From: Haloferax mucosum ATCC BAA-1512
Lineage (GTDB): Archaea; Halobacteriota; Halobacteria; Halobacteriales; Haloferacaceae
Direction of reading: 5' to 3'
Length of the DNA: 64,000 nucleotides
Assembly: GCF_000337815.1 (NCBI RefSeq)
Contig: NZ_AOLN01000011.1
Coordinates: forward strand, 496,001 to 560,000
Shown here: piece by piece, positions 52,314-59,897 of the stretch
Numbering within the stretch: position 1 is the first letter of the stretch
Layout of the letters: every line of letters begins with the position of its first letter
Made by a program: the position numbers and the translations under genes
Notes under the pieces: generated by a model
What the model saw: the letters and a program-made list of their open reading frames with translations, nothing else
What the model was told of the DNA's origin: nothing
Databases searched by the model: none

Positions 52314-54058
52314 CACGAGACGAACCCGCGGAGCGAATCCGCACCGACGGAGGCACAGCACAGGGAGCAGACGAAGTCGCTCTCGACCCGTGGGGCTCGT
52401 CAACCATCGCCGACTACCGGAAGTTGTTCGAGGAGTTCGGCATCGAGGAGTTCGACGAAGTCCTCGACGAAGTGCCGAACCCCCACTATCTGATGCGCCG
52501 CGGCGTCATCTTCGGGCACCGCGACTACCGGCGCGTGTTGGAAGCGATGCGCGACGGCGACGACTTCGCCGTTCTCTCGGGGTTCATGCCTACCGGCGAC
52601 CCCCACATCGGCCACAAACTCGTCTTCGACGAAATCATCTGGCATCAACAGCAGGGCGGCGACGCGTACGGTCTCATCGCCGACATGGAGGCGCACTCCG
52701 CCCGCGGTATCGCGTGGGACGAAATCAACGAGCACAGCCGCGACTACCTGCTGTCGCTCATCGCGCTCGGATTCGACCCCGAAGAGGGCGAACTCTACCG
52801 GCAGTCGGACAACGACACGCTTCAGCGACTCGCCTTCGAACTCGGCGGCAAGGCCAACTTCTCCGAGTTCGAGTCCATCTACGGCTTCGACGGCGAGACG
52901 AACATCTCGCACATGCAGTCGGTCGTCACGCAGATGGCCGACATCCTCTACCCGCAGTTGGACGACCCCAAGCCGACGGTCATTCCGGTCGGTCCCGACC
53001 AAGACCCGCACGTTCGATTCGCTCGTGACCTCTCGACGCGGATGCGATTCTTTAAAGTAACCGAGGCGTACTCCAGTTACGAGGTCACTGATGATTTACG
53101 GCAGTGCCTCAAGTGGTTCTATCACGAAATTGAGCGTGCATTCGAGGGTGGGCTTGGAATGGAGTCGCCCATGGTCAAAGCAAACTGCAATAATGCGCAG
53201 GCTGAGGTAATCTTCCGAGGTCTTGAAAACTACCTCCTTAATCCGGGCTCTGTTTCGCCATCTGAAGTGGAGGTCGACATTGAACAGCTCGTTGAACTGG
53301 ATAATCATGACCACAGTGCAAACGAGTGGAAGCAGGTAACCGATGCCTTAGTTCCGTTTGATATCTCACCTCCTGAGACCCTCTCAGAAGCGGCATACAA
53401 CGCACTCCTGCGTCGATTCAACAGCTCAGGTCGTGAACCGCTCCGCCCCCGCGTTCGCTTCTTCGCCCGGCAGGCGACCGACGAGGCGTTCGAGGCGCTC
53501 ATCGAGGACATCGAGGGCGAAAAGCGGCGATACGACCAGCACATCGACGCGTTCGACCTCGACGTTGCAGAAGCCGAGGAACTCGCCCGGAAGGTCGAGG
53601 CCCGCCACGGCGGCTACGGCTTCATCCCGCCGTCGTCAATCTATCACCGCTTTATGACCGGCCTGACGGGCGGGAAGATGTCTTCGTCGATTCCGGCGAG
53701 CCACATCTCGCTTCTCGACGACCCCGAAGACGGCTACGACAAGGTCAAGTCAGCGACGACCGGCGGCCGCGACACTGCCGACGAACAGCGCGAACTCGGT
53801 GGCGAGGCCGACAAATGTCCCGTCTACGAACTCTACGCGTACCTCCTCACGGGCGACGACGACGAACTCGCCAAGGAAGTGTACGACGAGTGCGTCGGCG
53901 GCGAGCGCCTCTGCGGCGGGTGTAAAGAACAGGCCGCGACGCTGATGCGCGAGTTCCTCGAAGACCACCACGAAAAGCGCGACGAGGCGAAGGAAGTCCT
54001 CGATTCGCTCGACATCGACTTGGAGACGGAACGACGAGGGGTAGCCGCCGAGCATTAG
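52310..54058 (+). CDS. trpS: Tryptophanyl-tRNA synthetase with an anomalous internal block
   Basis: A 582-residue class I synthetase. HIGH-type motif TGDPHIGHKLVFDEI (about residue 95) and KMSKS-type GGKMSSSIPASHIS (about 460) are intact. Cys pairs (CVGGERLCGGC) are near the C-terminus. Bases about 53046-53440 differ sharply from the rest: 150 of 300 bases at 53101-53400 are G/C, against 42 of 60 at 53461-53520. TTA and AT-ending codons concentrate here. The frame is kept. Relatives from memory are shorter, near 500-540 residues. The gene starts within endA (ATGA). Confidence 0.92.
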   Translation: MTRDEPAERIRTDGGTAQGADEVALDPWGSSTIADYRKLFEEFGIEEFDEVLDEVPNPHYLMRRGVIFGHRDYRRVLEAMRDGDDFAVLSGFMPTGDPHIGHKLVFDEIIWHQQQGGDAYGLIADMEAHSARGIAWDEINEHSRDYLLSLIALGFDPEEGELYRQSDNDTLQRLAFELGGKANFSEFESIYGFDGETNISHMQSVVTQMADILYPQLDDPKPTVIPVGPDQDPHVRFARDLSTRMRFFKVTEAYSSYEVTDDLRQCLKWFYHEIERAFEGGLGMESPMVKANCNNAQAEVIFRGLENYLLNPGSVSPSEVEVDIEQLVELDNHDHSANEWKQVTDALVPFDISPPETLSEAAYNALLRRFNSSGREPLRPRVRFFARQATDEAFEALIEDIEGEKRRYDQHIDAFDLDVAEAEELARKVEARHGGYGFIPPSSIYHRFMTGLTGGKMSSSIPASHISLLDDPEDGYDKVKSATTGGRDTADEQRELGGEADKCPVYELYAYLLTGDDDELAKEVYDECVGGERLCGGCKEQAATLMREFLEDHHEKRDEAKEVLDSLDIDLETERRGVAAEH

Positions 54059-55840: not shown

Positions 55841-56410
55841 ATGGGTTCGACTCCCTCTCTCCCGTCTCCACAGTCGCTTCCTCACGGCGACGCTCCGCAT
55901 GTTGCGGCCGCGTACACGATGGCGGCTGCAGCATTCGTCGCCGCGTTCGTGTTCGTCCTCGGCGTGAGCGCACTCGCTGTCTTCGAGTCCGTTCAGGCCG
56001 CGTCGCAGCCGTGGGGTAGCTCGTTCTTCCTTTTATTTCCGCTTCTCGGGCTCGTCGCTACCGTCATCGTGACGCCCGTCGCGTTCGCAATCGGCATCTT
56101 CGTGTGGCGTTGGGTCGTCCCGACGGGCGCATCTGCCAGACGGGGCGGCCTCGGTGGCGTCGTGACCGTCCTCGGGACGTATCTCGGTGCGGCCCTCGTG
56201 GTGTCGGTGCTCGGTGCACTCGCGGTCTTCGCCGAGAACGTCCAGTCTGCGATGTTCTTCGACCAGTGGACGCTGGCCAGGCTCATCGGGGGACTGGAAG
56301 CGGGTGCGATTGCCGGTCCAGTCGCGCTCGTCTACGGACTCATACTGACGTGGTGGATTACCCTCCCTGTCGGATTCGTTGCAGGCTGGCGGCATCAGCG
56401 ACGGTCGTGA
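55841..56410 (+). CDS. Membrane protein of unknown function, 189 aa
   Basis: A Ser/Pro-rich N-terminus precedes four hydrophobic segments (about residues 25-48, 62-90, 103-127 and 150-180). It ends in the basic tail GWRHQRRS. It is upstream of the pheST leader, and the T-rich tract at 56531-56543 could be its terminator. No recognised family. Confidence 0.7.
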   Translation: MGSTPSLPSPQSLPHGDAPHVAAAYTMAAAAFVAAFVFVLGVSALAVFESVQAASQPWGSSFFLLFPLLGLVATVIVTPVAFAIGIFVWRWVVPTGASARRGGLGGVVTVLGTYLGAALVVSVLGALAVFAENVQSAMFFDQWTLARLIGGLEAGAIAGPVALVYGLILTWWITLPVGFVAGWRHQRRS

Positions 56411-56442
56411 CACTACGCCCCACGATTCCGGAATTGTTTTGA

Positions 56443-56553
56443 ATGAACACGTCATCCCCGAAGATAATGGCATCCGAACCTGTCTGTGATGGTGTCTGCG
56501 TCACTCACGAACCGACCACCGACGGGTTCGGCTTTTTCTTTCTGACCGCCTGA
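56443..56553 (+). promoter_or_regulatory. Candidate phenylalanine-rich leader peptide of pheST
   Basis: An ORF of 36 codons from ATG 56443, or 28 from ATG 56467 (MASEPVCDGVCVTHEP...), ends TTDGFGFFFLTA. Four Phe codons fall within five consecutive positions: TTC 56527, TTT 56533, TTC 56536 and TTT 56539. It lies 132 bases before pheS. A weak TATA-like TTGTTTT is at 56433-56440. E. coli pheST has a Phe-rich leader peptide too. The alternative is a simple T-rich terminator of the upstream gene. Confidence 0.4.
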
Positions 56554-56562
56554 GGTCGGCGG
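56546..56562. promoter_or_regulatory. Hairpin overlapping the leader ORF stop
   Basis: CCGCC (56546-56550) and GGCGG (56558-56562) pair around a 7-base loop that contains the TGA stop. GGTCGG (56554-56559) can instead pair with CCGACC at 56599-56604 or again at 56651-56656, so alternative structures are possible. Confidence 0.4.
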
Positions 56563-56617
56563 ACTCCACTCGGGTGTGACCGCGCCCGACGGACGAAACC
56601 GACCCCCTCCGGTCAGA

Positions 56618-56634
56618 CTCGCCGGCACGGCGAG
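56618..56634. promoter_or_regulatory. Strong hairpin in the pheS leader
   Basis: CTCGCCG (56618-56624) and CGGCGAG (56628-56634) pair perfectly with a 3-base loop. It lies 51 bases before the ATG of pheS. Confidence 0.5.
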
Positions 56635-56685
56635 GCTTCGAAACTGCTAACCGACCACCAGACGGCTAACGCCACAACGAACCAG

Positions 56686-58185
56686 ATGCGACTTCCGGAA
56701 TCACAGGTCGCGGTGTTGAACGCCGCGAGCGCCACGGACGAACAGACGATAGCACAGTTAGCGGAGGAGACGGACCTGAAGCCCGAAACGGTGACGGGTG
56801 CCGTCTTCGACCTCCGCGACGACGGTCTCGTCTCCGTCACGGAGACCGTCGAAGAAGACATCGAACTGACTGACGAGGGCGTCGAGTACGCCGACGACGG
56901 CCTCCCGGAGGTTCGACTCTACCGCGCCGCGCTCGACGTGGACGACGGCGAATCGGTCCCGATGGGACAGGTTATCGGCGCGTCGTCGCTCGGCGGTCCC
57001 CAAGTTGATATCGCGCTGTCGAACTTCGCGCGAAAGGGCTACGGCCGCATCGACTCGGGCGAACTCGCCCCCGACGCGGACGCCGACCCCGACAGTGACG
57101 AAGAAGCCGCCGCGCTCGCGGCGCTCGTCGCGGGCGACGAGGTCACCGCCGACGTGCTCGACCAACTCGAATCGCGGAACCTCGTCGTTCGCCACGAGCG
57201 AACTATCCGCGCGGTCACCCTCACGGACGAGGGCGTGACGGCGCTGATGGAGGGCGTCGAGGCGGCCGAAACGGTTGACCGACTCACGCCCGAGATGCTC
57301 ACCTCCGGTGAGTGGGAAGACGTCGAGTTCACCGAGTACAACGTCGAAGCCGACGCGCCCGGAGTTCGCGGCGGCAAGAAACACATCCTTCGGCAGACCG
57401 CAGACCGCGTGAAAGACGTGCTCGTCGGCATGGGCTTCGCGGAGATGGAAGGCCCGCACGCCGACGCGGACTTCTGGATAAACGACTGCCTGTTCATGCC
57501 GCAGGACCACCCGGCGCGAACCCACTGGGACCGTTTCGCCCTCGACGTACCGCCGATGGAAGACATCCCCGAGGACCTCATCGACCGCGTTCGCTCGGCC
57601 CACCTGAACGGTGTCGGCGACGACGGTGACGGCTATCACTCGCCGTGGAGTGAGGACTTCGCCCGCGCCGTCGCCCTGCGTGGCCACACTACGTCGCTGT
57701 CGATGCGCTACCTCTCCGGTCACGAAGTCGGCGAGTTAGAGCCACCGCAGCGGTACTTCTCGGTCGAAAAGGTCTACCGCAACGACACGCTGGACCCGAC
57801 GCACCTGCTCGAATTCTACCAGATCGAGGGCTGGGTGATGGCCGAAGACCTCTCGGTACGCGACCTGATGGGTACCTTCGAGGAGTTCTACTCGCATTTC
57901 GGCATCACGGACATCCAGTTCAAACCGCACTACAACCCCTACACGGAGCCGTCGTTCGAACTGTTCGGCCGACACCCCGAGACGGGCGAACTTATCGAAA
58001 TCGGCAACTCCGGGATGTTCCGCGAGGAAGTCCTCTCGCCGCTCGGCGTCGAGTGCGACGTGATGGCGTGGGGACTCGCGCTGGAGCGTCTGTTGATGCT
58101 CATGTACGGGTTCGACGATATCCGCGACGTCCACGGAACGATGTGTGACCTCGATCTGCTCCGCGAAACGGAGGTGCTCAAGTAA
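56686..58185 (+). CDS. pheS: Phenylalanyl-tRNA synthetase alpha subunit
   Basis: A 499-residue class II synthetase subunit. An N-terminal winged-helix region (residues 1-200, tRNA-binding) has repeated acidic haloarchaeal linkers. Catalytic motif 2 region includes YFSVEKVYRNDTLDPTHLLE and motif 3 is GVECDVMAWGLALERLLMLM. No TATA box is seen 25 bases before the ATG, so transcription likely starts further upstream. pheT starts within the stop codon (TAATG). Confidence 0.96.
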   Translation: MRLPESQVAVLNAASATDEQTIAQLAEETDLKPETVTGAVFDLRDDGLVSVTETVEEDIELTDEGVEYADDGLPEVRLYRAALDVDDGESVPMGQVIGASSLGGPQVDIALSNFARKGYGRIDSGELAPDADADPDSDEEAAALAALVAGDEVTADVLDQLESRNLVVRHERTIRAVTLTDEGVTALMEGVEAAETVDRLTPEMLTSGEWEDVEFTEYNVEADAPGVRGGKKHILRQTADRVKDVLVGMGFAEMEGPHADADFWINDCLFMPQDHPARTHWDRFALDVPPMEDIPEDLIDRVRSAHLNGVGDDGDGYHSPWSEDFARAVALRGHTTSLSMRYLSGHEVGELEPPQRYFSVEKVYRNDTLDPTHLLEFYQIEGWVMAEDLSVRDLMGTFEEFYSHFGITDIQFKPHYNPYTEPSFELFGRHPETGELIEIGNSGMFREEVLSPLGVECDVMAWGLALERLLMLMYGFDDIRDVHGTMCDLDLLRETEVLK

Positions 58186-59897
58186 TGCCTGTCGTAGACG
58201 TTCAACCAGACGAACTGCGCCGCCTGACCGGCCACGAAGACAAGTCCGACGAGGAGTTCAAAGACGACCTGTTCGCGCTCGGCCTCGAATTCGAGGGCGT
58301 GACCGACGACGGGGCGTTCCAACTGGAGTTCGGTCCTGACCGTCTCGACCGCCTCTCTGTCGAAGGCGTCGCTCGGTCGCTTCGTTACCAGTATGGCGAT
58401 GCCCGCGGCGTGGCCGTCCCGAAGACGAACGACTCCGATTGGACTATCGCCGTTGACGAGTCAGTCCCCGAAGAGAGACCCTACGTCACGGGTGCGGTCG
58501 TCCGCGGCGTTGACCTCGACGAGGCCGCGCTCGACTCGCTCATCCAACTGCAAGAGAAACTGCACGCGACGATGGGCCGAAAGCGCGCCAAAGGTGCCAT
58601 CGGCATCCACGACCTGACGATGCTGAAAGGCGAGGTGCTCTCGGAAGACGCCTCGGGGAACACCATCACCTACACCGGTATCGAACCCGACGGCGACACC
58701 TTCGTCGCGCTCGACTCCGACGAGGAACTCACGCCCGCCGAAGTGCTCGAACGACACGAGACGGGCCGGAAGTACGCCGACCTCGTAGGTGAGTACGAGC
58801 GGTTCCCTGCCATCTACGACGAAATCGGTCTCTTCTCGTTCCCGCCGGTCATCAACGGCCGCCGAACCGAAGTTTCGACCGACTCGCGCGAATTGTTCGT
58901 TGAACTGACCGGGACCGACCAGTGGACTATCGACCGGATGTGCAACATCATCTGCTACGCGCTGGCCGCCCGCGGGGCAACTATCGAGGATATCAAGGTG
59001 CAGTACGAAGGCGGCACCGTCGTCAAACCCGACTTCGAAGTCGAGACGAAACGCGTCAGTCACGACCGAATCGAGACGGTCCTCGGTGTCGAATTGGAAC
59101 TCGACGAGGTCATCGACCTGTTCGAGCGCTCCGGACTGGACGCGGATGCGGAACTAGGCGATGAGACCGTCTATGAGGTCTCTATCCCACCGTACCGCGT
59201 TGACGTGCTTCACCCACTCGACCTCGTTGACGACGTGGGCCGCGCCTACGGCTTCAACGAACTCGAACCGCGCTACCCCGACGTTGGCACGGTCGGCCAG
59301 CGCCACGAGCGTTCCCGACTGGAAGACGCCGCGCGAACATCGCTCGTCGGTCTCGGCTTCGAGGACCTGCTCAACTTCCACATGATATCCGAGGAAGAGA
59401 ACTACGAGCGCATGGATGTCGAACCCGGGACGGCGACGCTCGGCGGCGGCGACCCCGTCTCTATCACCGAACCGTACAGCGAAGACTACACTATGCTCCG
59501 CTCGTGGGTGCTCCCGTCGCTCACGATGGTTCTGGAGAATAACACCCACCGAGCGTACCCGCAGGACCTCGCGGAAATCGGCCACGTGGCCCACCGCGAC
59601 GACGACGAGAACACGCGCGTTTCTGAGGCTCGCCACGTCGCCGCCGTGCTCGCTCGTCACGACGCGACCTACGAAGACGCGAAAGGTCGGCTCGCGGCCC
59701 TCTGCCGCGACTTCGATGTCGAACTCGAGACGCCGCCGACAGACCACCCGTCGTTCATCTCCGGACGGACCGCCGCTGTCGTCATCGACGGTGAGGAAGT
59801 CGGTGTCGTCGGTGAACTGCATCCCAAAGTCATCGTCGAACACGATCTCGAACTACCGGTCGCGGCGTTCGAGTTCGACCTGTCGGCGCTCGCGTAA
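58185..59897 (+). CDS. pheT: Phenylalanyl-tRNA synthetase beta subunit
   Basis: A 570-residue archaeal-type beta subunit. It has the B3/B4-type editing-like region with FPPVINGRRTEVSTDSRELF, the B5 domain SHDRIETVLGVELELDEVID, and a class II-like inactive domain with FEDLLNFHMISEEENYERMD. The anticodon-binding domain of bacterial PheT is absent, normal for archaea. It overlaps pheS by one base, so both subunits are made in step. Confidence 0.95.
   Translation: MPVVDVQPDELRRLTGHEDKSDEEFKDDLFALGLEFEGVTDDGAFQLEFGPDRLDRLSVEGVARSLRYQYGDARGVAVPKTNDSDWTIAVDESVPEERPYVTGAVVRGVDLDEAALDSLIQLQEKLHATMGRKRAKGAIGIHDLTMLKGEVLSEDASGNTITYTGIEPDGDTFVALDSDEELTPAEVLERHETGRKYADLVGEYERFPAIYDEIGLFSFPPVINGRRTEVSTDSRELFVELTGTDQWTIDRMCNIICYALAARGATIEDIKVQYEGGTVVKPDFEVETKRVSHDRIETVLGVELELDEVIDLFERSGLDADAELGDETVYEVSIPPYRVDVLHPLDLVDDVGRAYGFNELEPRYPDVGTVGQRHERSRLEDAARTSLVGLGFEDLLNFHMISEEENYERMDVEPGTATLGGGDPVSITEPYSEDYTMLRSWVLPSLTMVLENNTHRAYPQDLAEIGHVAHRDDDENTRVSEARHVAAVLARHDATYEDAKGRLAALCRDFDVELETPPTDHPSFISGRTAAVVIDGEEVGVVGELHPKVIVEHDLELPVAAFEFDLSALA

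Follow-up and report, generated by a model that had tools for sequence, protein, structure and literature searches.

The window analysed here is a stretch of 64,000 nucleotides from Haloferax mucosum ATCC BAA-1512, in which the genes for the two subunits of phenylalanine-tRNA ligase, pheS and pheT, lie downstream of a membrane-protein ORF that ends at 56410. The gap of 275 b between this ORF and pheS, which starts at 56686, holds a short reading frame rich in phenylalanine codons together with a promoter and two RNA helices. The features are as follows, in window positions:

56428 to 56440, forward strand: leader promoter P1, with a BRE-like CCGGAA (56428-56433) and the TATA box TTTT (56437-56440)
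56467 to 56553, forward strand: Phe leader ORF of 28 codons plus stop, encoding MASEPVCDGVCVTHEPTTDGFGFFFLTA
56474 to 56484, forward strand: 5' arm of helix SL1, CCGAACCTGTC, in codons 3-6, pairing with 56521-56531
56521 to 56531, forward strand: 3' arm of SL1, GACGGGTTCGG, ending 1 base before the three Phe codons (FFF)
56533 to 56541, forward strand: putative control codons TTT TTC TTT (Phe-Phe-Phe)
56554 to 56604, forward strand: hairpin SL2, directly after the leader stop, built as GGTCGG / CGGA-C / inner stem / C-GAAA / CCGACC
56639 to 56651, forward strand: pheS-proximal box CGAAACTGCTAAC (GGAACnGCTAACtG in other genera), 36-47 b before pheS, a candidate promoter-like or RNA element
56686 to 58185, forward strand: pheS, phenylalanine-tRNA ligase alpha subunit
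58185 to 59897, forward strand: pheT, beta subunit, overlapping the pheS stop

All 391 genomes of the class gave a match to pheS, and its counterpart in Haloferax volcanii is HVO_2948 (PMC4983044); pheT was identified by its place directly 3' of pheS. A first-pass annotation of the sequence had noted an ORF with an FGFFF run and its stop in this gap, and the ORF is indeed present. Its start had been placed at 56443, which is only 3 b after the TATA box and is wrong; the true ATG is at 56467. Relatives share the equivalent ATG, with a BRE-like element (GGAA/GCAAC) and then a TTTT TATA box ahead of it at near-constant spacing. Because the ATG sits about 27-30 b after the TATA box, the ORF is leaderless, and the spacing equals that of ordinary leaderless promoters, for example those of prephenate dehydratase genes. 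Among 862 short ORFs (10-60 aa) of the window, this leader alone has four or more Phe within six codons close to the C-terminus. The 80 related loci hold 5156 short ORFs, of which 34 have this feature, every one of them the Phe leader. A chance origin of the Phe-rich ORF is negligible.

The leader is widespread in haloarchaea. A DNA search matched the region in all 14 congeners that it returned and in five other genera. In nine of the congeners the similarity begins only at 56508, and the leader is intact beside unrelated upstream DNA, which makes it independent of the upstream gene. Across 80 named haloarchaeal pheS loci, 64 have an ORF of 23-48 codons that closes with a Phe run, in most cases GFGFFF followed by one to three residues, in genera including Haloferax, Halogeometricum, Halogranum, Halorubrum, Haladaptatus, Halorussus, Natronomonas, Natrinema, Natrialba and Halovivax. 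Two further leaders are broken or degenerate (loci L064 and L032). The remaining loci (e.g., Halohasta, Halonotius and some Natronomonas) have none, often because of a close neighbouring gene; about 15 of the 80 species are without an intact leader. At loci L064 and L093 the frame is apparently broken or the peptide has drifted (GFGFFF not in the frame of the ATG; FGFRPPKPAAFF) next to a retained SL2, which may be sequencing error or decay. One contig labelled Candidatus Pacearchaeota (L087) carries a haloarchaeal-type pheS (74% identical) with a Phe leader, and is probably mis-binned.

The alignment of pheS upstream regions that the first-pass annotation had proposed as a check came out in its favour: the reading frame and the FFF codons are kept across Halobacteria, and variation in the run is mainly TTT/TTC exchange at the third codon position. 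Of 230 Phe codons in leaders 63 are TTT, whereas the pheS genes of these species use TTT for 56 of 1222 (27% vs. 4.6%; Fisher 3.7e-23), with a similar excess at all three FFF codons. Runs of at least five T occur in leaders at a frequency of 0.60, and 0.51 is predicted from codon choice alone; since such runs are about as common as codon choice predicts, the excess seems to reflect which Phe codon is preferred and not a demand for a U-run, and this comparison does not support selection for a U-run terminator within FFF. Many archaeal transcripts end at U-rich tracts, and a rival explanation takes the run TTTTTCTTT as merely the terminator of the upstream gene and the ORF as a product of chance. 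But the third codon positions of FFF change from T to C, the ORF and its helices persist beside unrelated upstream DNA, and the chance of such an ORF is tiny. This explanation is extremely improbable, and we consider it refuted by the comparative data.

Two helices are conserved around the Phe codons. SL1 joins start-proximal codons to the bases just before FFF, and its arms were recognized by pairing, register, covariation and folding. The register is fixed: counted from the anchor, FFF ends after 13 bases in 54 of 65 leaders and one codon earlier in eight. Contiguous pairing averages 9.3 bp, compared with 6.0 in shuffled sequences and 7.5 with swapped arms. Double changes occur in seven of ten pairs, with a covariation score of 0.294, where shuffles give 0.147 and slid arms no more than 0.119 (alignment A1, without L063, L072 and L093), where the counts, like those for SL2, ignore phylogeny, and the arms were cut by hand at the register found by complementarity. 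Compensating pairs include GAACCC/GGGTTC and GAATCC/GGATTC, CTCGAACGC/GCGTTCGAG in Halorubrum and GTCGGACGC/GCGTCCGAC in Haloglomus, as well as three that replace the first Phe of GFG, namely GGACCC/GGGTCC (Ser), GACCCC/GGGGTC (Val) and GAGCCC/GGGCTC (Leu, L134). The FFF run mostly stays Phe while these SL1 changes swap the first Phe of GFG and are matched in codons 3-5. RNA pairing is thus what maintains the first Phe of GFG, whereas FFF is maintained as Phe codons.

SL2 follows the leader stop, its stem starting -2 to 9 b from it, with the consensus [..CGG]YGGAN[stem]NGAAA[CCG..]. Under a strict rule it was found in 54 of 65 loci and in 0.03% of shuffles (a few congeners are counted twice), and the few other leaders, read by eye, mostly have variants of the consensus. 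Changes on both sides are seen in 10 of 11 pairs, with a covariation score of 0.518 vs. 0.179 shuffled. GGA and GAAA are invariant in 41 distinct hairpins, an invariance that is partly selected, as the strict rule itself demanded YGGA and GAAA. Among the pheS loci surveyed SL2 was never found without a leader ORF; three hairpin loci missed by the strict ORF rule (L064, L072 and L096) have the ORF on reading, with the frame break in L064. A covariance model of SL2 (R1) gave one strong match per genome, and those checked are all at pheS; the genomes checked hold no strong match elsewhere, and the two weak matches that were read (L167 and L168) had no pheS. A search of low sensitivity in a 148-genome sample of the phylum found no SL2 outside Halobacteria. 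The YGGA/GAAA internal loop (56560-56563 and 56595-56598 in the window) is highly conserved in most SL2s and presumably forms tandem (three) sheared GA pairs; a protein-binding platform is possible. A k-turn was also considered for this loop and rejected, YGGA/GAAA being at odds with the k-turn consensus.

Competing pairings of GGTCGG with either of two CCGACC sites had been suggested for this region. GGTCGG (56554-56559) does pair with CCGACC at 56599-56604, as the covarying outer stem of SL2, but the two-way alternatives are not the conserved helices. A hairpin around the stop codon and the other CCGACC sites are there in Haloferax, and among the sequences read they were seen only in that genus. 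Likewise, a 7-bp hairpin at 56618-56634 is real but genus-level, and the 3' part alone folds no better than shuffles. Single-sequence folding is only mildly better than shuffles for the leader parts (z -1.5 to -1.8), and the case for the helices therefore rests on comparative evidence.

In the comparison of pheS upstream regions there was no conserved U-run after SL2 and before pheS, the only U-rich tract being FFF, which follows SL1. Nor did we find an E. coli-type intrinsic terminator (GC stem plus U-run) between the leader ORF and pheS, and a scan of the window against Rfam returned no match, T-box included. SL1 (56474-56531) and SL2 (56554-56604) share no bases, and no conserved alternative pairing was visible by eye. 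In place of a mutually exclusive terminator and antiterminator, the leader thus has two helices that would exclude each other only through ribosome occupancy. The core of the proposal, a Phe-codon leader peptide controlling pheST, is supported by the conserved frame, the FFF codons and a transcript that starts at the leader. Its wiring was only partly right: the conserved helices are SL1 and SL2, with no U-run terminator between the leader and pheS.

The transcript start comes from published data. Using dRNA-seq in H. volcanii, Babski et al. (2016) list in their Table 2 a pheS 5'-UTR of 150-250 nt that contains a 26-aa ORF of pI 5.9, and a 23-aa ORF before the tryptophan-tRNA ligase gene HVO_A0127 (PMC4983044). 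Rows 12 and 13 of that table, before HVO_2948 pheS (26 aa) and HVO_A0127 TrpRS (23 aa), are very probably the ORFs described here. For the Phe ORF the match rests on gene, length and pI and not on sequence: several Haloferax leaders are 26 aa long, with a pI of 5.94 in K variants and a mass of 2792-2850 vs. 2772 in the table (PMC4983044). The table places a start at the leader and gives no additional one at pheS, in line with the check that the first-pass annotation had proposed, and it is from this H. volcanii data set only that leader and pheS are known to share a transcript (PMC4983044).

This bears on the box that lies between SL2 and pheS. The box resembles a BRE plus a weak TATA, it is found both with and without a leader (GGAACnGCTAACtG), and may act as a weak second promoter or as an RNA element. 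If pheS were mainly transcribed from it, the leader would be a separate short transcript, acting by interference or not at all, and the presence of the box where the leader is absent speaks for this. The missing second start at pheS in the H. volcanii dRNA-seq table (PMC4983044) speaks against it, as does the constant company of SL2 and leader. The 14-mer of the box, moreover, is essentially confined to pheS (of 40 genomes sampled, 7 have a single copy, which in six cases stands at pheS), unlike a general promoter, and we regard transcription mainly from the box as unlikely.

A second leader of the same type precedes a tryptophan-tRNA ligase gene. The second trpS gene of the genome (G000 contig 4; L223/L247) is preceded by an ORF encoding MVSTSHANCWRWHVSREVDSIAV and ending there with a stop. 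Of about 33 trpS loci of this second type (L223/L247; L224-L226, L229, L230, L248-L276), 24 were called automatically as having a Trp leader and five more by eye, in several families. The peptides take forms such as MxSAPxWRWxxPGADSV, with the Trp run in ..CWRW.., and codons 2-6 pair with bases after WRW, so that the helix encloses WRW. Covariation was found in 8 of 12 pairs (0.347 vs. 0.193), with one of five measures (further pair types) not above shuffles. The Trp leader has no U-rich tract after its helix. In L247-L276 a variable GC-rich hairpin is followed by a conserved, terminator-like GCTC(A/C)CT(T)CGnTT(C)TC, which lies some 45-75 b ahead of trpS. The other TrpRS gene of the genome lies about 3 kb upstream of pheS (window about 52529-53998; G000:C11:548529-549998), and a scan of its relatives showed no Trp leader. 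Prephenate dehydratase genes (Phe biosynthesis) are leaderless and have no Phe leader in the loci read, cognate-rich leaders were not found in the trpE, hisS and tyrS loci scanned, and plasmid records gave no match.

The H. volcanii study lists the small ORF ahead of pheS as a possible separate small-protein gene (PMC4983044), in which case a functional small protein would stand before pheS merely through operon context. The peptide does not behave in this way: its middle is not conserved, its length ranges from 23 to 48 aa, its N-terminal and GFG residues track RNA pairing, and mainly FFF is kept as residues. In L254, in addition, the Trp peptide is cut off directly behind WRWRWQ, yet its helix persists. 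We therefore hold a small-protein function to be very unlikely.

Taken as a regulatory element, the leader is probably a cis-acting, ribosome-mediated Phe sensor in the 5' part of the pheST mRNA. Ribosome-position sensing of tRNA charging is the best explanation because two synthetase genes each have a leaderless ORF with cognate codons and a covarying helix that a ribosome could block. By its sequence, the short ORF in the 5' leader carries a cognate codon run, and the conserved folds SL1 and SL2 fall within the stretches that ribosomes would be expected to cover at FFF and at the stop, so placed that ribosome position may switch them. In footprint folding, placing the A site of the ribosome on FFF hides the 3' arm of SL1 and leaves SL2 free, and placing the ribosome at the stop hides the 5' arm of SL2 and lets SL1 re-form, a result that is partly true by construction. 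Transcription would begin at P1, and a ribosome would start directly on the leaderless ORF. With charged tRNA-Phe scarce, it would stall on FFF and block SL1 by covering its 3' arm, leaving the region after the stop free to form SL2; this would be the high-expression state. With charged tRNA-Phe plentiful, the ribosome would reach the stop and cover the 5' arm of SL2, and SL1 would fold again behind it; the start region of the leader itself would then be closed, and a stable hairpin would stand directly before the U-rich FFF. This would be the low-expression state, most likely because transcription would terminate early, helped by SL1 or by unprotected RNA. U-rich tracts can halt archaeal RNA polymerase, and unprotected RNA is a target of factor-dependent termination. 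That starvation would raise expression is suggested by this logic and by bacterial parallels.

The output of a Phe-sensing leader might instead be pheS translation or mRNA stability, without transcription termination. The absence of a terminator between leader and pheS would fit this, as would the highly conserved YGGA/GAAA loop of SL2, which is typical of a binding platform, and the distance of only about 44 b from SL2 to pheS in the shortest leaders. Against it, we saw no conserved pairing that involves the pheS start, and the predicted accessibility of that start is constant across ribosome states (0.58-0.60), so that simple occlusion of the pheS start is unsupported. We consider such an output possible but doubtful, and modestly favour transcription over both translation and stability.

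The proposed sensor resembles several bacterial systems. In E. coli, pheST is controlled by transcription attenuation through the pheM leader peptide; both leaders encode a Phe-rich peptide directly before pheST, and in both the signal is likely ribosome position on the Phe codons. In contrast to E. coli, the archaeal ORF is leaderless, SL1 is formed from the start codons of the ORF itself, the stop is followed by a hairpin with a YGGA/GAAA loop, and no intrinsic terminator was found before pheS. The bacterial trp, his, thr and leu leaders likewise have a short ORF with a cognate codon run whose translation decides between RNA folds, whereas in haloarchaea only two tRNA-synthetase genes were found to have such a leader, trpE and prephenate dehydratase being without one, and the fold logic would be another. 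T-box riboswitches also place tRNA-synthetase genes under the control of tRNA charging, but the haloarchaeal leader has no Rfam match and would sense by a translated ORF.

Leader-peptide attenuation is a textbook bacterial mechanism, and needs coupled transcription and translation. In the open-access literature we found no proposal of attenuation for archaea, such sensors being described there only in bacteria. The leader uORF is already in print as a small ORF; the section concerned gives uORF lengths, masses and start sites, and within that section Phe or Trp codons, RNA structure, conservation and control are not treated (PMC4983044). With somewhat less confidence than for the sensor itself, we think it likely that this is the first ribosome-mediated amino-acid attenuation in Archaea, with leaderless leaders at PheRS and a TrpRS gene conserved through Halobacteria, a switching helix made from the start codons of the leaders themselves and, in the case of pheS, a YGGA/GAAA hairpin that would read the arrival of the ribosome at the stop. 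The sensor reading would account for two published uORFs, and the leaders indicate that leaderless translation could serve sensing. A study of H. volcanii from 2021 stated that nearly nothing is known about transcription-translation coupling in archaea (PMC8576121). The two deeply conserved synthetase leaders would offer a ready reporter for such coupling and for ribosome-dependent control in archaea.
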